Part shown: positions 5,136 to 14,332 of the stretch, piece after piece
Position numbering within the stretch: position 1 is the stretch's first letter
Layout: each line of letters opens with the position of its first letter
Source of the DNA: a virus
DNA: 29,324 bases
IMG/VR virus record: IMGVR_UViG_3300027708_000237
Coordinates: 1 to 29,324 of that record
Direction: 5' to 3' (one strand)
The notes under the pieces: model-generated
Seen by the model: only the letters and a program-made list of their open reading frames with translations
Told to the model about the DNA's origin: nothing
Databases searched by the model: none
Translations under genes and position numbers: made by a program

Positions 5136-5891
5136 ATGAGTGATTTTGACTTCATGCAAGAAATCAAAGCGTCTCCAAGTCCCGCCAGACTTGCCATTTT
5201 GCCCGTTTCTGTTCTTGAAATAGGATCAGGTGGAAAGCATTCAGTTAGAGGTGAATCAAATCATGATTCTGAATCTAGCAGAACCGGGTATTCCCCATTT
5301 CCGTTTGAAGTTGCGGAAATATGCGCTGCTCTTTATTTAAGGGGAAAATCTCATGTTGTTGATCCTTTTGCTGGATGGGGAGAAAGAGGAGAGGCAATGA
5401 AAAGGCACGACATTAAATATACTGGATTTGATATATCTGAAGAGGCGATTAAAACAGCAAAAGACAAGTTTGGAGTAGAAAATATTCTTTCTGATTCAGC
5501 TTTTGTTGAAGTTCCAAAACATGATGGACTGATTACTTGCCCTCCATATTGGGGGTTAGAAAAATATGATTCAGACGAAGGCTTGGATAAGGCTGAATCA
5601 TGGTCGGGATTTCTTTATGAATACGCAAACGTTCTTGAAAGATTTTCAAAAATGGCAGAATCAAAATCCAAATATGCAATCATGACGGGAGATTGGAGGG
5701 ATGAAGGAAAATACTATGATCTAACCTTTCAAACTGAAATGATAATGAATGCCATTGGATTTGAGCCTTTCGACAAGGTTGTAGTTTCAAGGCTAGGAAT
5801 CAGCAAAATAAAGATCATGTTGCCGCAAGCGAAAAGACTTGGCTATTCAGTAAAAGTTCACGAATCCCTAAATGTTTTCATCAAACCATAA
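5136..5891 (+). CDS. DNA methyltransferase (orphan, phage type)
   Basis: The 251-residue protein has the SAM-binding motif DPFAGWG at residues 76-82, an acidic motif II residue in YTGFDIS (about 98-99), and a catalytic CPPYW at 135-139 followed by LEKYD. The order motif I then CPPY, and the LExYD sequence after it, resemble phage DNA methyltransferases of the group often fused to ParB-like domains, except that no ParB domain is present. It probably methylates adenine N6 or cytosine N4. No restriction enzyme gene is adjacent, so protection of phage DNA against host restriction, or regulation, is the likely job. The gene looks somewhat more AT-rich than its neighbours. Confidence 0.75.
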   Translation: MSDFDFMQEIKASPSPARLAILPVSVLEIGSGGKHSVRGESNHDSESSRTGYSPFPFEVAEICAALYLRGKSHVVDPFAGWGERGEAMKRHDIKYTGFDISEEAIKTAKDKFGVENILSDSAFVEVPKHDGLITCPPYWGLEKYDSDEGLDKAESWSGFLYEYANVLERFSKMAESKSKYAIMTGDWRDEGKYYDLTFQTEMIMNAIGFEPFDKVVVSRLGISKIKIMLPQAKRLGYSVKVHESLNVFIKP

Positions 5892-5898
5892 CAAACCT

Positions 5899-6075
5899 AT
5901 GAAATACACAACCTATAACGGCGACCGCCCTAACTTGGATTGGACTCCTTTCCTTTTACACCTCTTCAGAGACCACAACTGGAACCTCTGCAAGCCAAAA
6001 TATAAATCTTCATTACCTGCAAAAAAAGATTTGCAAGAAACGAAAACAAATGCAATCATAGCAACTTCTAACTAA
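5899..6075 (+). CDS. Hypothetical protein (58 aa)
   Basis: The ATG 7 bases after the methyltransferase stop opens a frame starting MKYTTYNGDRPNLDWTPF and ending in a Lys/Thr/Asn-rich tail. The aromatic-rich first half could be a small domain. I do not recognise it. I prefer 5899 to the in-frame TTG at 5872 because the latter would overlap the methyltransferase end. The gene is in series with the ribbon-helix-helix gene 7 bases downstream. Confidence 0.5.
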   Translation: MKYTTYNGDRPNLDWTPFLLHLFRDHNWNLCKPKYKSSLPAKKDLQETKTNAIIATSN

Positions 6076-6082
6076 TACAACC

Positions 6083-6295
6083 ATGACAACAACTGAACCA
6101 ACCACAATCGAAGCCGAACCCACCGCCGCCGAGCCTATTACTCCCGTCTTAACCGAAACCAAGACTTCCGCATTCCTTGGCCTATACGTTCCTGTACCCC
6201 TTAAAAACAAGGTAGCAGATGCCGCCAAAGCACAGCGTCGATCTATGAGCAGCTTTGCCGTTGGAGTCTTTGAGGATTACTTCAACCAAAAATAA
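6083..6295 (+). CDS. Ribbon-helix-helix (Arc/MetJ-like) DNA-binding protein
   Basis: The C-terminal 40 residues fit a ribbon-helix-helix fold: a strand FLGLYVPVPL (31-40), then helix 41-51 and helix 54-68 (SMSSFAVGVFEDYF). Such proteins dimerise and insert the paired strands into the DNA major groove, usually as repressors. The first 28 residues are a flexible Thr/Glu/Pro/Ala tail containing TAAEPIT, shared with the genes at 4186 and 4513. It is the best candidate for a phage transcription regulator in the window. Operator sites are not established. The next micropeptide begins 1 base after its stop. Confidence 0.65.
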   Translation: MTTTEPTTIEAEPTAAEPITPVLTETKTSAFLGLYVPVPLKNKVADAAKAQRRSMSSFAVGVFEDYFNQK

Positions 6296-6296
6296 T

Positions 6297-6380
6297 ATGA
6301 GCCACCCTACTACAACAATTGCCACGTTGATTCTTCTCTCTGGACTTGTCGTTCTCGCCGTATTAACAATGCCAAAATGA
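6297..6380 (+). CDS. Membrane micropeptide (27 aa)
   Basis: A 27-codon ATG frame starts one base after the regulator gene stop. It encodes MSHPTTTIATLILLSG followed by further hydrophobic residues and a short MPK end. It amounts to one transmembrane helix. The position inside the operon favours translation. The function is unknown. Confidence 0.45.
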   Translation: MSHPTTTIATLILLSGLVVLAVLTMPK

Positions 6381-6505
6381 AACCCGGACTTTAGATCCAG
6401 ACTCTCGCATAAACAAAAGTTTAAGAGCTTGGAATTGCCACTAAATGAAAACACACTTTTCGATCAGCAATAACGCTGAACGAGAACCAAACAAAAACAA
6501 CAACC

Positions 6506-6685
6506 ATGTCACACACACTAGCAGAACTAAACGAAATCGCGCAGGGAGTAGCAAACAAGCTCGGTCACATCAGTCAGGAACGTCTCTTGGAGGTCGAAGC
6601 ACTCATCAACAAGAAGGAGTGTTCTACCGCCCCTTGCCAGAACCAACAGCCTGTATCGGGTGTTACCGAGACCCCTGCTGTTTAA
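6506..6685 (+). CDS. Hypothetical protein (59 aa)
   Basis: The ATG at 6506 follows a CA-rich leader and encodes a helical start (MSHTLAELNEIAQGVANKLG) with regular hydrophobic spacing, then a Cys/Pro/Gln-rich tail. I chose this frame over a longer overlapping frame at 6445-6696. The longer product is rich in Asn, Arg, Ser and His and looks random, whereas this one has an amphipathic helix and a leader like those of neighbouring genes. The next gene starts 7 bases after its stop. No family is recognised. Confidence 0.55.
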   Translation: MSHTLAELNEIAQGVANKLGHISQERLLEVEALINKKECSTAPCQNQQPVSGVTETPAV

Positions 6686-6692
6686 CTAACCG

Positions 6693-6872
6693 ATGAAAGA
6701 ACTCTTTGAGCGCATGAAAGGGATGTTTAAACCCCTCCAAGTCAAGGCACTCCCTAATGAGACTTTGATCAAAACTCGTAAGCTGAAGCCAGCAAAGCGG
6801 AAGTCGATCAAATCAGAAACAACAACGCCAGTAACAAAAGGCCGCAAGGCTGCAACCAAAGGAAAAAAGTAA
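6693..6872 (+). CDS. Highly basic small protein (59 aa)
   Basis: The first 20 residues (MKELFERMKGMFKPLQVKAL) can form an amphipathic helix. The rest is very rich in Lys, Arg and Thr (TRKLKPAKRKSIK, TKGRKAATKGKK), like the tail of a histone or of an HU-like protein. Binding to DNA or RNA is the natural inference. It lies immediately before another Lys-rich peptide gene (1-base gap) and upstream of the Erf recombinase gene. No named family is recognised. Confidence 0.55.
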   Translation: MKELFERMKGMFKPLQVKALPNETLIKTRKLKPAKRKSIKSETTTPVTKGRKAATKGKK

Positions 6873-6873
6873 G

Positions 6874-6981
6874 ATGCCAACTAAAAAGAAGGCCGTAAAA
6901 GGCGAGTCAATGAGAGAAGAAGCCAAAGAGATGAAAATGCTCAAAGGCAAGAAGCCCATGATGAAGGGCAAGAAGAAGTAA
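6874..6981 (+). CDS. Lys/Met-rich basic micropeptide (35 aa)
   Basis: The peptide begins MPTKKKAVKGESMREEAKEM and ends in a Lys/Gly/Met cluster (KGKKPMMKGKKK). It contains short near-repeats of K-G-K-K and M-x-K. The gene starts one base after the preceding basic-protein gene. Very basic short peptides of this type occur in many phage genomes without known roles. Nucleic-acid compaction or charge neutralisation is a guess. Confidence 0.5.
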   Translation: MPTKKKAVKGESMREEAKEMKMLKGKKPMMKGKKK

Positions 6982-6992
6982 AACTTCCTAAT

Positions 6993-7026
6993 GCTCCTAG
7001 AGGGACATGAACAACCCTCTAGGAGC
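6993..7026 (+). promoter_or_regulatory. 12-bp perfect hairpin with the erf ATG in its loop
   Basis: GCTCCTAGAGGG (6993-7004) and CCCTCTAGGAGC (7015-7026) are exact complements around a 10-base loop ACATGAACAA. The loop contains the first in-frame ATG of the Erf gene at 7007. There is no T-run after it, so it is not a classical terminator. It is well placed to control translation or transcript processing of the recombination module. Confidence 0.7.
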
Positions 7027-7810
7027 TACCAGGAGCACAGCAACCACGCAAGCACCCAACTACATGAACATACCAGTAACTACGTCACAAAGTCAACAAT
7101 CCCAAATTGCTTCCAAACTGGTAGCAATTATGAAGGACATCACAGCTATCGGAAAGGATAGCCGAAACCAAGCACAAGGATTCAGTTTCCGAGGGATTGA
7201 TGCCGTTTACAACGAACTTCACTCACTCCTAGCCAAGCATGGAGTGGTTTGCCTACCAGAAGCAGGGACTCCTGTAACTGAAGAACGCACCAATAAGAAC
7301 GGAACGATTCTCCGTTTTGTCCAACTCCCGATGAGGTACAACTTCATTGCCGAGGATGGAAGCACCATTACTTGTTCCGTAATTGGCGAAGGAATGGACA
7401 GTGGGGACAAGGCAACAAACAAAGCAATGGCGATTGCCCACAAGTATGCATTACTCCAAACCTTCTTGATCCCTACCGAGGAGCAGAAAGATCCCGATTA
7501 TGAAGCTCATGAAGTAAAGCCAAGGCAATCAGTCCAGAAACCTGTTATAAAGCCAGAGAAAGCCAAGGAGACCATAGTTGCGGAGCTTGTAGAGGCCAGC
7601 ATGAAGGCAGCAGAAGAACAAAACCCGCTGACCACTCTCTCATCCTTGATGTGGGATGCCGGGATTGAAGACTCTCATGTCATTGAGTTCCTTATCGCTA
7701 AAAAGGCCATCAAGGACAGGAGCGTTCGCCTAAAGGAAGTCAATCCAAAGGTAATTGCCCGCCTCATTGAGAAGTTCGATGACGTTCTAGCATTCAAACC
7801 AGCACTATAA
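7007..7810 (+). CDS. erf: Erf-family single-strand annealing recombinase
   Basis: The family binds single-stranded DNA ends, anneals complementary strands and supports phage recombination and genome circularisation. Residues about 37-165 carry the Erf pattern: LVAIMKDITAIGKDSRN, then FSFRGIDAVYNELHSLLAKHG, then GEGMDSGDKATNKAMAIAHK. A linker and a helical C-terminal domain follow. At 267 residues it is of normal length. The ATG at 7007 lies in a hairpin loop. The in-frame ATG at 7064 follows a CA-rich leader (AACCACGCAAGCACCC) like others here and may be the real start, removing a low-complexity 19-residue extension. The gene is followed by a 1-base overlapping gene, then a nuclease and an SSB gene. 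Confidence 0.85.
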   Translation: MNNPLGATRSTATTQAPNYMNIPVTTSQSQQSQIASKLVAIMKDITAIGKDSRNQAQGFSFRGIDAVYNELHSLLAKHGVVCLPEAGTPVTEERTNKNGTILRFVQLPMRYNFIAEDGSTITCSVIGEGMDSGDKATNKAMAIAHKYALLQTFLIPTEEQKDPDYEAHEVKPRQSVQKPVIKPEKAKETIVAELVEASMKAAEEQNPLTTLSSLMWDAGIEDSHVIEFLIAKKAIKDRSVRLKEVNPKVIARLIEKFDDVLAFKPAL

Positions 7811-8032: not shown

Positions 8033-9088
8033 ATGGACGAGCGCAACGGAAAACCATCAGCAAGCGGGTTCTCTCGACTTGCCCTTTGTCCTGGCTCTTG
8101 GAACCTAGAATCCACGCTACCAGAACAGGAAGAGAACAAGTATATGGCACTAGGAACGGATATTCATGCCGTCCTAGCGGGAACTAAACCCTTTGAGTCA
8201 CTAACTGAAGACGGGCAAGACATCGCTACAAGGTGTCTGTCCCAATTCAGCGAGATGATCGGTCGGTTGGATCTAGGTGAGAGAACCAAGGAGGTCATTG
8301 AGAAGCGATTCTGGTATGATGATCTCTTCTCTGGAGCTATTGATCGCATCGACTTTTTTGGTGATGACACAGCAGTTGTCACCGATTACAAGACAGGTCG
8401 TGTAGCTCAATCAGGAGCCGCTGAAAACTACCAACTCCGAGCCTATGCCGTGCTAGTTAAGAAGGCATTCCCCCAACTCAAGACAATCCTTGTTGCCATC
8501 ATTCAGCCAATGGCGGGGCCAAAGACGATTGCCCAATACGATGAGGGGGATCTAGTCAAGGCAGAGCAGGAAATCTATGGCATCGTTACTGCTTCCCAAA
8601 AGCATGATGCTGTCAGAACTCCTAGTCCAGATGCTTGCAAGTGGTGTCGTGCTAAAAGCATTTGTCCAGAGGTTCGTGGGGTGCATAAGGAGTTAGAGGT
8701 GGTCTCAAAGGCCGTTGTTCCCCAACTCTCCAACGAAGAAATCCTAGCTATTGATGAGAAAGCCGAAGTTGTTTTGGACTTCATCGAGGAAGTCAGGAAG
8801 GAGATGAAGGCTCGCATGATGGCGGGGCAACAATTCGCTGGACGAACACTAACAGAAGGGCGTAAAACAAGGAGTGTCAACGATGCTCTTGCTGTTATTT
8901 CTGCACTTTCTGGCGTGGTTGAACAAAGTGATATACTTGCTTGCTCAAAGATTTCAGTTGCATCTCTTGAAAAAGTCTATGCAAAGGTCAGAGGCATCAA
9001 AGGTAAGGATGCCAAACAGCAATTCGAAGATGCCCTTGGATGGCTCATCGAAACCACAACCAGTGAACCTTCCATCAAACGGAATTGA
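8033..9088 (+). CDS. DUF2800-like PD-(D/E)XK nuclease with Fe-S cysteines
   Basis: The 351-residue protein resembles phage RecB/Cas4-type exonucleases. Near the N-terminus is SRLALCPGSW with Cys19. The nuclease core has GAIDRIDFF and the catalytic DYKTG (Asp118, Lys120), followed by the QLRAYAVLV helix. Three further cysteines (Cys202, Cys205, Cys211 in CKWCRAKSIC) with Cys19 match the four-Cys iron-sulphur arrangement of Cas4/AddB nucleases. It likely resects double-strand ends to give the single strands that Erf anneals. It sits between the Erf and SSB genes, which supports that role. The C-terminal helical region resembles DUF2800 members. Confidence 0.8.
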   Translation: MDERNGKPSASGFSRLALCPGSWNLESTLPEQEENKYMALGTDIHAVLAGTKPFESLTEDGQDIATRCLSQFSEMIGRLDLGERTKEVIEKRFWYDDLFSGAIDRIDFFGDDTAVVTDYKTGRVAQSGAAENYQLRAYAVLVKKAFPQLKTILVAIIQPMAGPKTIAQYDEGDLVKAEQEIYGIVTASQKHDAVRTPSPDACKWCRAKSICPEVRGVHKELEVVSKAVVPQLSNEEILAIDEKAEVVLDFIEEVRKEMKARMMAGQQFAGRTLTEGRKTRSVNDALAVISALSGVVEQSDILACSKISVASLEKVYAKVRGIKGKDAKQQFEDALGWLIETTTSEPSIKRN

Positions 9089-9669: not shown

Positions 9670-9692
9670 AACCACGCAACCACGCAACCACA
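9670..9692 (+). repeat. AACCACGC tandem leader repeat
   Basis: Two exact AACCACGC units followed by AACCACA lie directly before the ATG at 9693. The same AACCACGC occurs upstream of the alternative Erf start at 7064. This belongs to the G-poor CA-rich leader type seen throughout the early region. Confidence 0.6.
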
Positions 9693-9914
9693 ATGAATGA
9701 ACGACACTGCTACTGTTCCGAGCGTTACTCTATCGTCCCGGAATATCACTGCTGCAAGTATGTCAAAGCTAGAAACGAGTTAATTGATGACGCTGAATAT
9801 GAGTCGAGGGCAATGTCTCGTAGGGAGAATGGGTCACTCGATTTCAACAAGTTTAATAGGCTTTTTAATCAACTGATGGAAAAGGCCGTTGATGAAGCAG
9901 GATTACTCAAATGA
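9693..9914 (+). CDS. Hypothetical protein with Cys-rich start (73 aa)
   Basis: The first 21 residues hold four Cys and two His (HCYCSERYSIVPEYHCCKY), compatible with a small metal site. A charged helical region follows. I do not recognise the family. The gene opens a long chain of overlapping genes, and its stop overlaps the next ATG as ATGA. The start is set by the AACCACGC tandem leader. Confidence 0.6.
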   Translation: MNERHCYCSERYSIVPEYHCCKYVKARNELIDDAEYESRAMSRRENGSLDFNKFNRLFNQLMEKAVDEAGLLK

Positions 9915-13509: not shown

Positions 13510-13725
13510 ATGAATGAAGAAATCAAAGAGTTTGTTGAGGCATTCTTGGTAGAGAATAGCAAGCCAGAAATGACTATGCACCAGAAACTACAGCGTTCTA
13601 ATGACCAGAGAAATCGTGCTATACAAATAGCAGACAAGATGCTAGAATGGGAAAACCCTTCTGATACTCGCAAAAGCATTAAAGATTTAAGCGCATTGAA
13701 AAAAGAAATTAATGAAAGAAAATAA
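13510..13725 (+). CDS. Small helical protein related to the 11963 gene (71 aa)
   Basis: The product begins MNEEIKEFVEAFLVENSKPE and contains QRNRAIQIADKMLEWENP, then SIKDLSALKKEINERK. The RAIxIA segment and ALKKEI end parallel RAIKIAEIFQGE and ALKAEIK of the gene at 11963, so this is probably a shorter paralog. I chose the ATG at 13510; the earlier in-frame start would overlap the whole Pro-rich gene. The AT-rich HNH gene begins 14 bases before its end. Confidence 0.6.
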   Translation: MNEEIKEFVEAFLVENSKPEMTMHQKLQRSNDQRNRAIQIADKMLEWENPSDTRKSIKDLSALKKEINERK

Positions 13726-14332
13726 ATACAAGAGAGGATTTATACGAGAAGATGGCATGATCTTTTTGCAATATAATAAGAATTGTAAAAATGGAGAATG
13801 GTGGGTTAATCGTGATTTATTTGAAATATATAAAGAAAAAAGAAGGATTTATTCACGAGAAAGATATGCAAAAAATACAAAAAGAGTTAAGGAATGCAGT
13901 TATAAATGGAGAAGAAATAATCCAGAAAAAGTAAAAGCATCTGTATTAAAATGGAGAATTGAAAATAGGGATAAACATCTTTCCACAAGGAATAAATATC
14001 AAAAAAAAAGAAGGCAAAACCCTTTAATAATCATTTCAGAAAGAATAAGAGCCTTAATATTTTTTAAACTTAAAGTTAAAAATTATACAAAGAAGTCTAG
14101 GACTCATGAAATATTGGGCTGCTCCTATGATGATTTTAAAATTTATATTGAAAAACAATTTAAGGATGGCATGACGTGGAATAATAAAGGTGCATGGCAT
14201 ATAGATCATATCATTCCAACGTGTGTTGCTAAAACTGAACAAGAATTAATTAAGTTAAACCATTACACAAATCTTCAACCATTATGGGCTGAAGATAACC
14301 TTAAAAAAGGAAGCAAAATAATAGCCAAATGA
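13712..14332 (+). CDS. HNH endonuclease, probable homing type
   Basis: The 206-residue protein is very basic. Residues 1-40 form a small domain (KRGFIREDGMIFLQYNK, then GEWWVNRDLFE). A Lys/Arg-rich helical DNA-contact region follows. The C-terminal HNH fold has WHIDHIIP with catalytic His about 163-166, then HYTNLQPLWAEDNLKKGSK. This order fits free-standing phage homing endonucleases, which cut related genomes and spread by repair. The gene is strikingly AT-rich: bases 13861-13920 have only 15 G/C of 60, against 29 of 60 in the nuclease gene at 8161-8220. It overlaps both neighbours, so it has fitted into the operon without a gap. Confidence 0.75.
   Translation: MKENKYKRGFIREDGMIFLQYNKNCKNGEWWVNRDLFEIYKEKRRIYSRERYAKNTKRVKECSYKWRRNNPEKVKASVLKWRIENRDKHLSTRNKYQKKRRQNPLIIISERIRALIFFKLKVKNYTKKSRTHEILGCSYDDFKIYIEKQFKDGMTWNNKGAWHIDHIIPTCVAKTEQELIKLNHYTNLQPLWAEDNLKKGSKIIAK

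Follow-up and report, generated by a model that had tools for sequence, protein, structure and literature searches.

A covarying hairpin upstream of a phage recombinase gene as a candidate terminator of an antisense RNA

Stable hairpins placed directly past a stop codon are familiar from phage operons of the T4 type, where the tetraloop is tight and no antisense promoter is conserved. In phage lambda, the -10 box of the pO-oop-tO unit lies directly against the start codon of O, and transcription stops at a terminator located where the upstream gene ends; the product, OOP RNA, is short, leftward and antisense to early mRNA (PMC5869508, PMC3985674). Here we describe an inverted repeat next to a recombinase gene in a 29,324-nucleotide stretch of viral DNA (IMGVR_UViG_3300027708_000237; the whole stretch analysed is called the window below), and propose that it is probably the intrinsic terminator of a minus-strand gene for an OOP-like antisense RNA.

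The hairpin and its relatives

The two arms, at 6993-7004 (GCTCCTAGAGGG) and 7015-7026 (CCCTCTAGGAGC), are complementary at 12/12 positions around a 10-nt loop (ACATGAACAA), and the RNA fold of 6993-7026 has a z of -5.9, with equal stability in 0/200 shuffles, which bears out an earlier note on this DNA that had reported a perfect 12-bp hairpin with a 10-base loop. This is the sole perfect stem of at least 10 bp with a loop of 3-15 nt in the whole 29-kb window, and 30 dinucleotide-shuffled windows gave no perfect stems of at least 12 bp. The fold also predicts an outer extension on the minus strand (6986-7034), in which UCCUGGU at 7034-7028 pairs with AUUAGGA at 6992-6986 and leaves one bulged A; this outer pairing is present in most relatives and missing in some.

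On the 5' side of the hairpin lie small ORFs, the last of which is Lys-rich (6874-6981, plus strand) and has its stop 11 nt 5' of the hairpin. On the 3' side are the gene of an Erf-type single-strand annealing protein (PF04404; 7064-7810, plus strand, from its conserved start, with an N-terminus kept in relatives) and then a DUF2800/PD-(D/E)XK exonuclease gene.

In close relatives the hairpin is retained while its arm sequences are rewritten, and more distant members were gathered through a leader-pattern search. As a check on bias, loci were also picked by the downstream exonuclease alone, with the hairpin playing no part in the choice. All 47 such loci (identity at least 59%, recombinase start in the contig) had a hairpin of 11-13 bp, one per locus and just 5' of the recombinase start, beside recombinases that were Erf-type (two kinds) or RecT-like; among exonuclease relatives at 43-48% identity, 0/6 had it. 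The exonuclease found no matches in the bacterial genomes searched, and the leader pattern occurred there in at least 117 stretches, of which 80 were examined and none had a hairpin of the clade type. The nearest recorded phage exonuclease, from an Akkermansia phage, is 27% identical, and the hairpin is absent there.

Pair counts were restricted to members of equal loop length because MAFFT misaligned the arms when all loop lengths were aligned at once. Across 16 distinct stems, 174/176 pairs were Watson-Crick, none was G-U and two were A-C, and 99.2% of cells paired in 12 members of equal loop length, against 36-54% in slid controls. The search for compensatory changes in related phages that had been suggested as a check was run on these 12 members: 10 of the 11 pairs had changed on both sides, with 54 double-change cells and no one-sided changes. 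A covariance model found exactly one match per locus in 58 clade loci, and on 96 other sources (mostly other Erf/exonuclease relatives) it matched only the window and seven clade loci. Loop length varies from 8 to 12 nt, the loop motif CATGAA is kept in most members, and an identical stem can be found beside different recombinase types. The compensatory changes support selection on the hairpin, which is tied to the recombinase gene.

Three side observations concern the related contigs. The stem arms of L159, L168 and L197 are swapped relative to those of L164 and L183 (CTCCCTAGCC-loop-GGCTAGGGAG vs GGCTAGGGAG-loop-CTCCCTAGCC) with loop orientation unchanged, an exchange that simple inversion could not produce. 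A gene resembling an HNH endonuclease by sequence occurs in the window (13712-14332) and in L164 (4925-5575), L183 (5872-6432) and L185 (1495-2157), and its position differs among these related phages, as expected of a homing endonuclease. Contig L174 carries an abiF RNA (RF03085, 43.2 bits) at 8266-8302, near a tRNA gene.

Three kinds of recombinase (Erf-A, Erf-B and RecT-like) are found 3' of the hairpin, and all share a C-terminal domain, some 80 residues long, that matches no Pfam family. The cores (two Erf types, one RecT-like) have been swapped between a constant leader and start and this constant domain (window 7064-7810; L094, L116, L143, L185). We considered the common domain as a binder and set this idea aside, its predicted structure being weak (mean pLDDT 69.5) with no fold matches.

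Core swapping beside the hairpin, arms that are nearly all Watson-Crick and the complete lack of one-sided changes would suit a palindrome acting as DNA, for example as a cruciform, a replication or recombination site or a dimer operator. Sites for dimers or recombinases differ from this family, in which the spacer varies from 8 to 12 nt and arm sequence is free, and the position of the hairpin is fixed within a transcribed leader, so we judge a DNA-level role to be improbable.

In all 29 distinct members the hairpin starts 6-17 nt past a stop codon, and 29-41 nt separate its end from the recombinase ATG. This placement, like the conservation of the CATGAA loop, could also be accounted for if the mRNA were the functional strand, with an intercistronic stem-loop for processing or stabilising the message, or for binding a protein through its conserved loop, and covariation is compatible with either strand. 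Such a role for the message is possible but not probable in our assessment: it does not explain the conserved TTGACT and TA boxes of the minus strand described below, nor the A-tract 5' of the stem, and the stem has hardly any G-U pairs and two A-C cells.

The loop ATG and the recombinase start

The loop contains an ATG at 7007, the first in frame with erf, and a second in-frame ATG at 7064 is preceded by a CA-rich leader, both as the earlier note had described them. That note took the loop ATG for an alternative erf start, or for part of a translational switch at the start codon. The loop ATG is in the recombinase frame and stop-free in the window and nine other members; this proportion, 10/36, is about what frame chance would give, and in the other 26/36 it is out of frame or stopped. 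Several members read Met-Asn-stop from it, and near relatives that share the hairpin have small indels that shift it out of frame. It is lost in two lineages, L220/L221 (CCTCGACAA) and L223 (CCATAAACAAA), and offsets from the loop ATG to the true start run from 48 to 60 nt with no three-nt period. Mostly out of frame and missing from two lineages, this ATG is not the conserved start, and the alignment of erf among relatives, in which the first alignable residues start at 7064, indicates that the conserved start is 7064.

A hairpin that occludes or opens the start was likewise rejected. Predicted accessibility of the 7064 start is 0.73 with the hairpin and 0.71 with its arms shuffled, and because the hairpin alters it so little a start-occluding switch is unlikely. 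Initiation or switching at the loop ATG therefore seems to us extremely doubtful, and the in-frame ATG is better seen as a trap, from which gene finders would pick the wrong erf start. Pairing of the loop with the recombinase start codon gave a match p of 0.06.

Candidate promoter and terminator signals on the opposite strand

Read on the minus strand, the hairpin at 6993-7026 has the features of a terminator stem, a reading that draws on the fold, the shuffles, covariation and the covariance model. With the outer helix, the minus-strand stem of the window reaches 19 bp with one bulge and is followed by a T-rich tail (6970-6985, minus strand; AGTTTTACTTCTTCTT) that includes TTTT at 6983-6980 and more T's past the extended stem. 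Relatives have stronger T tails at this place, the window's own subclade having the weakest T-tract, which begins only past the outer helix. At least six T in the eight bases right after the minus-strand stem were found in 16/25 distinct members, compared with 4.5% of 8-mers past other stops, and when the eight bases after the full minus-strand helix were counted, 24/29 had at least four T. Tails were richer in T on the minus strand than on the plus strand in 28/29. An open scan of clade contigs for T-tailed hairpins gave 16 matches, and all 15 of the matches listed were the minus-strand reading of this hairpin.

In favour of this strand, the two A-C mismatches seen in the plus-strand stem would both pair as G-U when the minus strand is read. 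Other comparisons of the strands were less telling. The minus-strand fold was the more stable in 25/29, which partly follows from an A/C-rich plus strand and is given little weight; wobble pairs of the outer helix favoured neither strand.

The earlier note had pointed out that no T-run follows the hairpin and had argued from this against a terminator. The observation holds on the plus strand of the window and fails on the minus strand, where the T-rich tail follows, and for that strand the dismissal of a terminator was probably mistaken. A plus-strand attenuator or terminator relieved by antitermination could draw on the 7/25 distinct members that have at least five T in the eight bases past the stem; a plus-strand terminator was rejected because neither the window nor most members have such a run on that strand, and as the downstream genes would also need read-through, we regard the attenuator as very unlikely.

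A putative antisense promoter lies within the first recombinase codons (7067-7096, minus strand), with TTGACT at 7096-7091 and TATGTT at 7072-7067 separated by 18 nt. It is the only sigma-70-like site in 5800-7300, where 1.5 are expected by chance. The window has three copies of the strict pattern and shuffles have 1.9, and as one sequence alone proves nothing, the case for the promoter is built on conservation. The two other strict TTGAC-17/18-TAnnnT sites of the window, at 1850-1821 and 833-804 on the minus strand, are found shortly 5' of two genes on that strand, which start at 1591 (terminase small subunit) and 796.

TTGAC is kept in 33/33 distinct recombinase starts with unrelated N-termini, encoded by the codons AGT CAA (GGT CAA once), although AGT makes up 19% of Ser codons. 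TA follows at a spacer of 17 or 18 nt in 29/33 starts and in two codon phases, being displaced in the remaining 4/33, and both boxes shift jointly as their distance from the ATG varies (24, 27 or 30 nt). Synonymous redraws that use clade codon usage produced the boxes in a mean of 1.6 and a maximum of 6 starts, compared with 31/35 observed, bearing in mind that the null models remove relatedness only in part. AGTCAA is absent from the recombinase starts of six hairpin-free relatives and present at 3 of about 340 other ORF starts. Judged by sigma-70 rules, which may not be those of the host, many members have a -10 box that departs strongly from consensus (TATTCA, TATTTG). The sequence evidence (29/33; 31/35) thus places a candidate opposite-strand promoter near the start of the downstream gene, and a GC-rich hairpin with a T tract follows in the same orientation, as is typical of intrinsic terminators, more weakly so in the window's subclade. 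If the promoter is real, selection has kept it inside the coding starts of unrelated proteins, an example of overlapping constraints.

A candidate antisense RNA

Promoter, seed, hairpin and T tail stand in the correct order on one strand, and the hairpin most likely serves to end a short RNA transcribed from the opposite strand over the start of the recombinase gene. RNA polymerase would start at the promoter within the first recombinase codons, and the RNA would begin at about 7060, just 5' of the recombinase ATG. It would copy the complement of the conserved recombinase leader AGCAACCACGC (7039-7049, plus strand), so that GCGUGGUUGCU becomes its would-be seed, and transcription would stop in the T-rich tract past the hairpin, near the stop of the Lys-rich ORF. 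The positions of promoter and terminator predict an RNA of about 80-86 nt in the window (6976-7061, minus strand), and lengths of about 66-90 nt across the clade. Paired with the leader in the recombinase mRNA, it would lower or time the expression of the recombination genes, with a possible extra effect of convergent-transcription interference, as at lambda pO. What supports this proposal at the level of sequence is the conservation and covariation of the hairpin, the spaced and conserved promoter-like boxes, the T-rich tail, and the order and orientation of these parts; from them we infer transcription, the RNA ends and the regulatory effect. The conserved loop ATGAAC is poorly accounted for by the antisense reading.

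Leaders of the type AACCACGC also occur directly 5' of the ATG in other early genes that have no hairpin, in the window (9670-9693) and in L143 (4558), L172 (8061, minus strand) and L191 (9550). For the predicted RNA paired with the leader of gene 9693, the calculated duplex energy is -32.0 kcal/mol; the mean for gene starts is -22.5 kcal/mol. We suggest only tentatively, as a rather unlikely extension, that the RNA could also act in trans, its seed GCGUGGUUGC pairing with AACCACGC leaders such as that of gene 9693 and co-timing genes for replication and recombination; the RNA gene would meanwhile stay in place as recombinase cores (Erf-A, Erf-B, RecT-like) are swapped, with its promoter maintained in every incoming coding sequence.

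The antisense prediction is precise as to start, end, length and partner. If it is true, these hairpins would mark an undescribed family of antisense RNAs in dozens of uncultured phages, positioned to control genes of homologous recombination.

Comparison with lambda OOP and other phage hairpins

The T4-type intercistronic hairpins resemble this family in their stability and in following a stop codon directly within a phage operon; they differ in their tight tetraloops, against loops of 8-12 nt here, and in lacking a conserved antisense promoter. Cis-regulatory RNA families in Rfam likewise include covarying hairpins 5' of a gene; no Rfam 15 family matched the hairpin region on either strand when covariance scores were compared with gathering thresholds.

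Lambda OOP differs in its surroundings, which are cII and O; the neighbours in the window are the Lys-rich ORF and the recombinase gene, and the locus does not have the position that defines OOP. Furthermore, OOP overlaps the cII coding sequence by 52 bases, while the RNA of the window, which is predicted from sequence, would mainly span the intergenic leader. The likeness is one of layout, and common descent is not claimed: in both cases the promoter, putative in the window, has its -10 box by the start codon of an early-operon gene of DNA metabolism (O in lambda), a terminator hairpin, here a candidate one, lies by the end of the upstream gene, and the RNA is, or would be, antisense to early mRNA.
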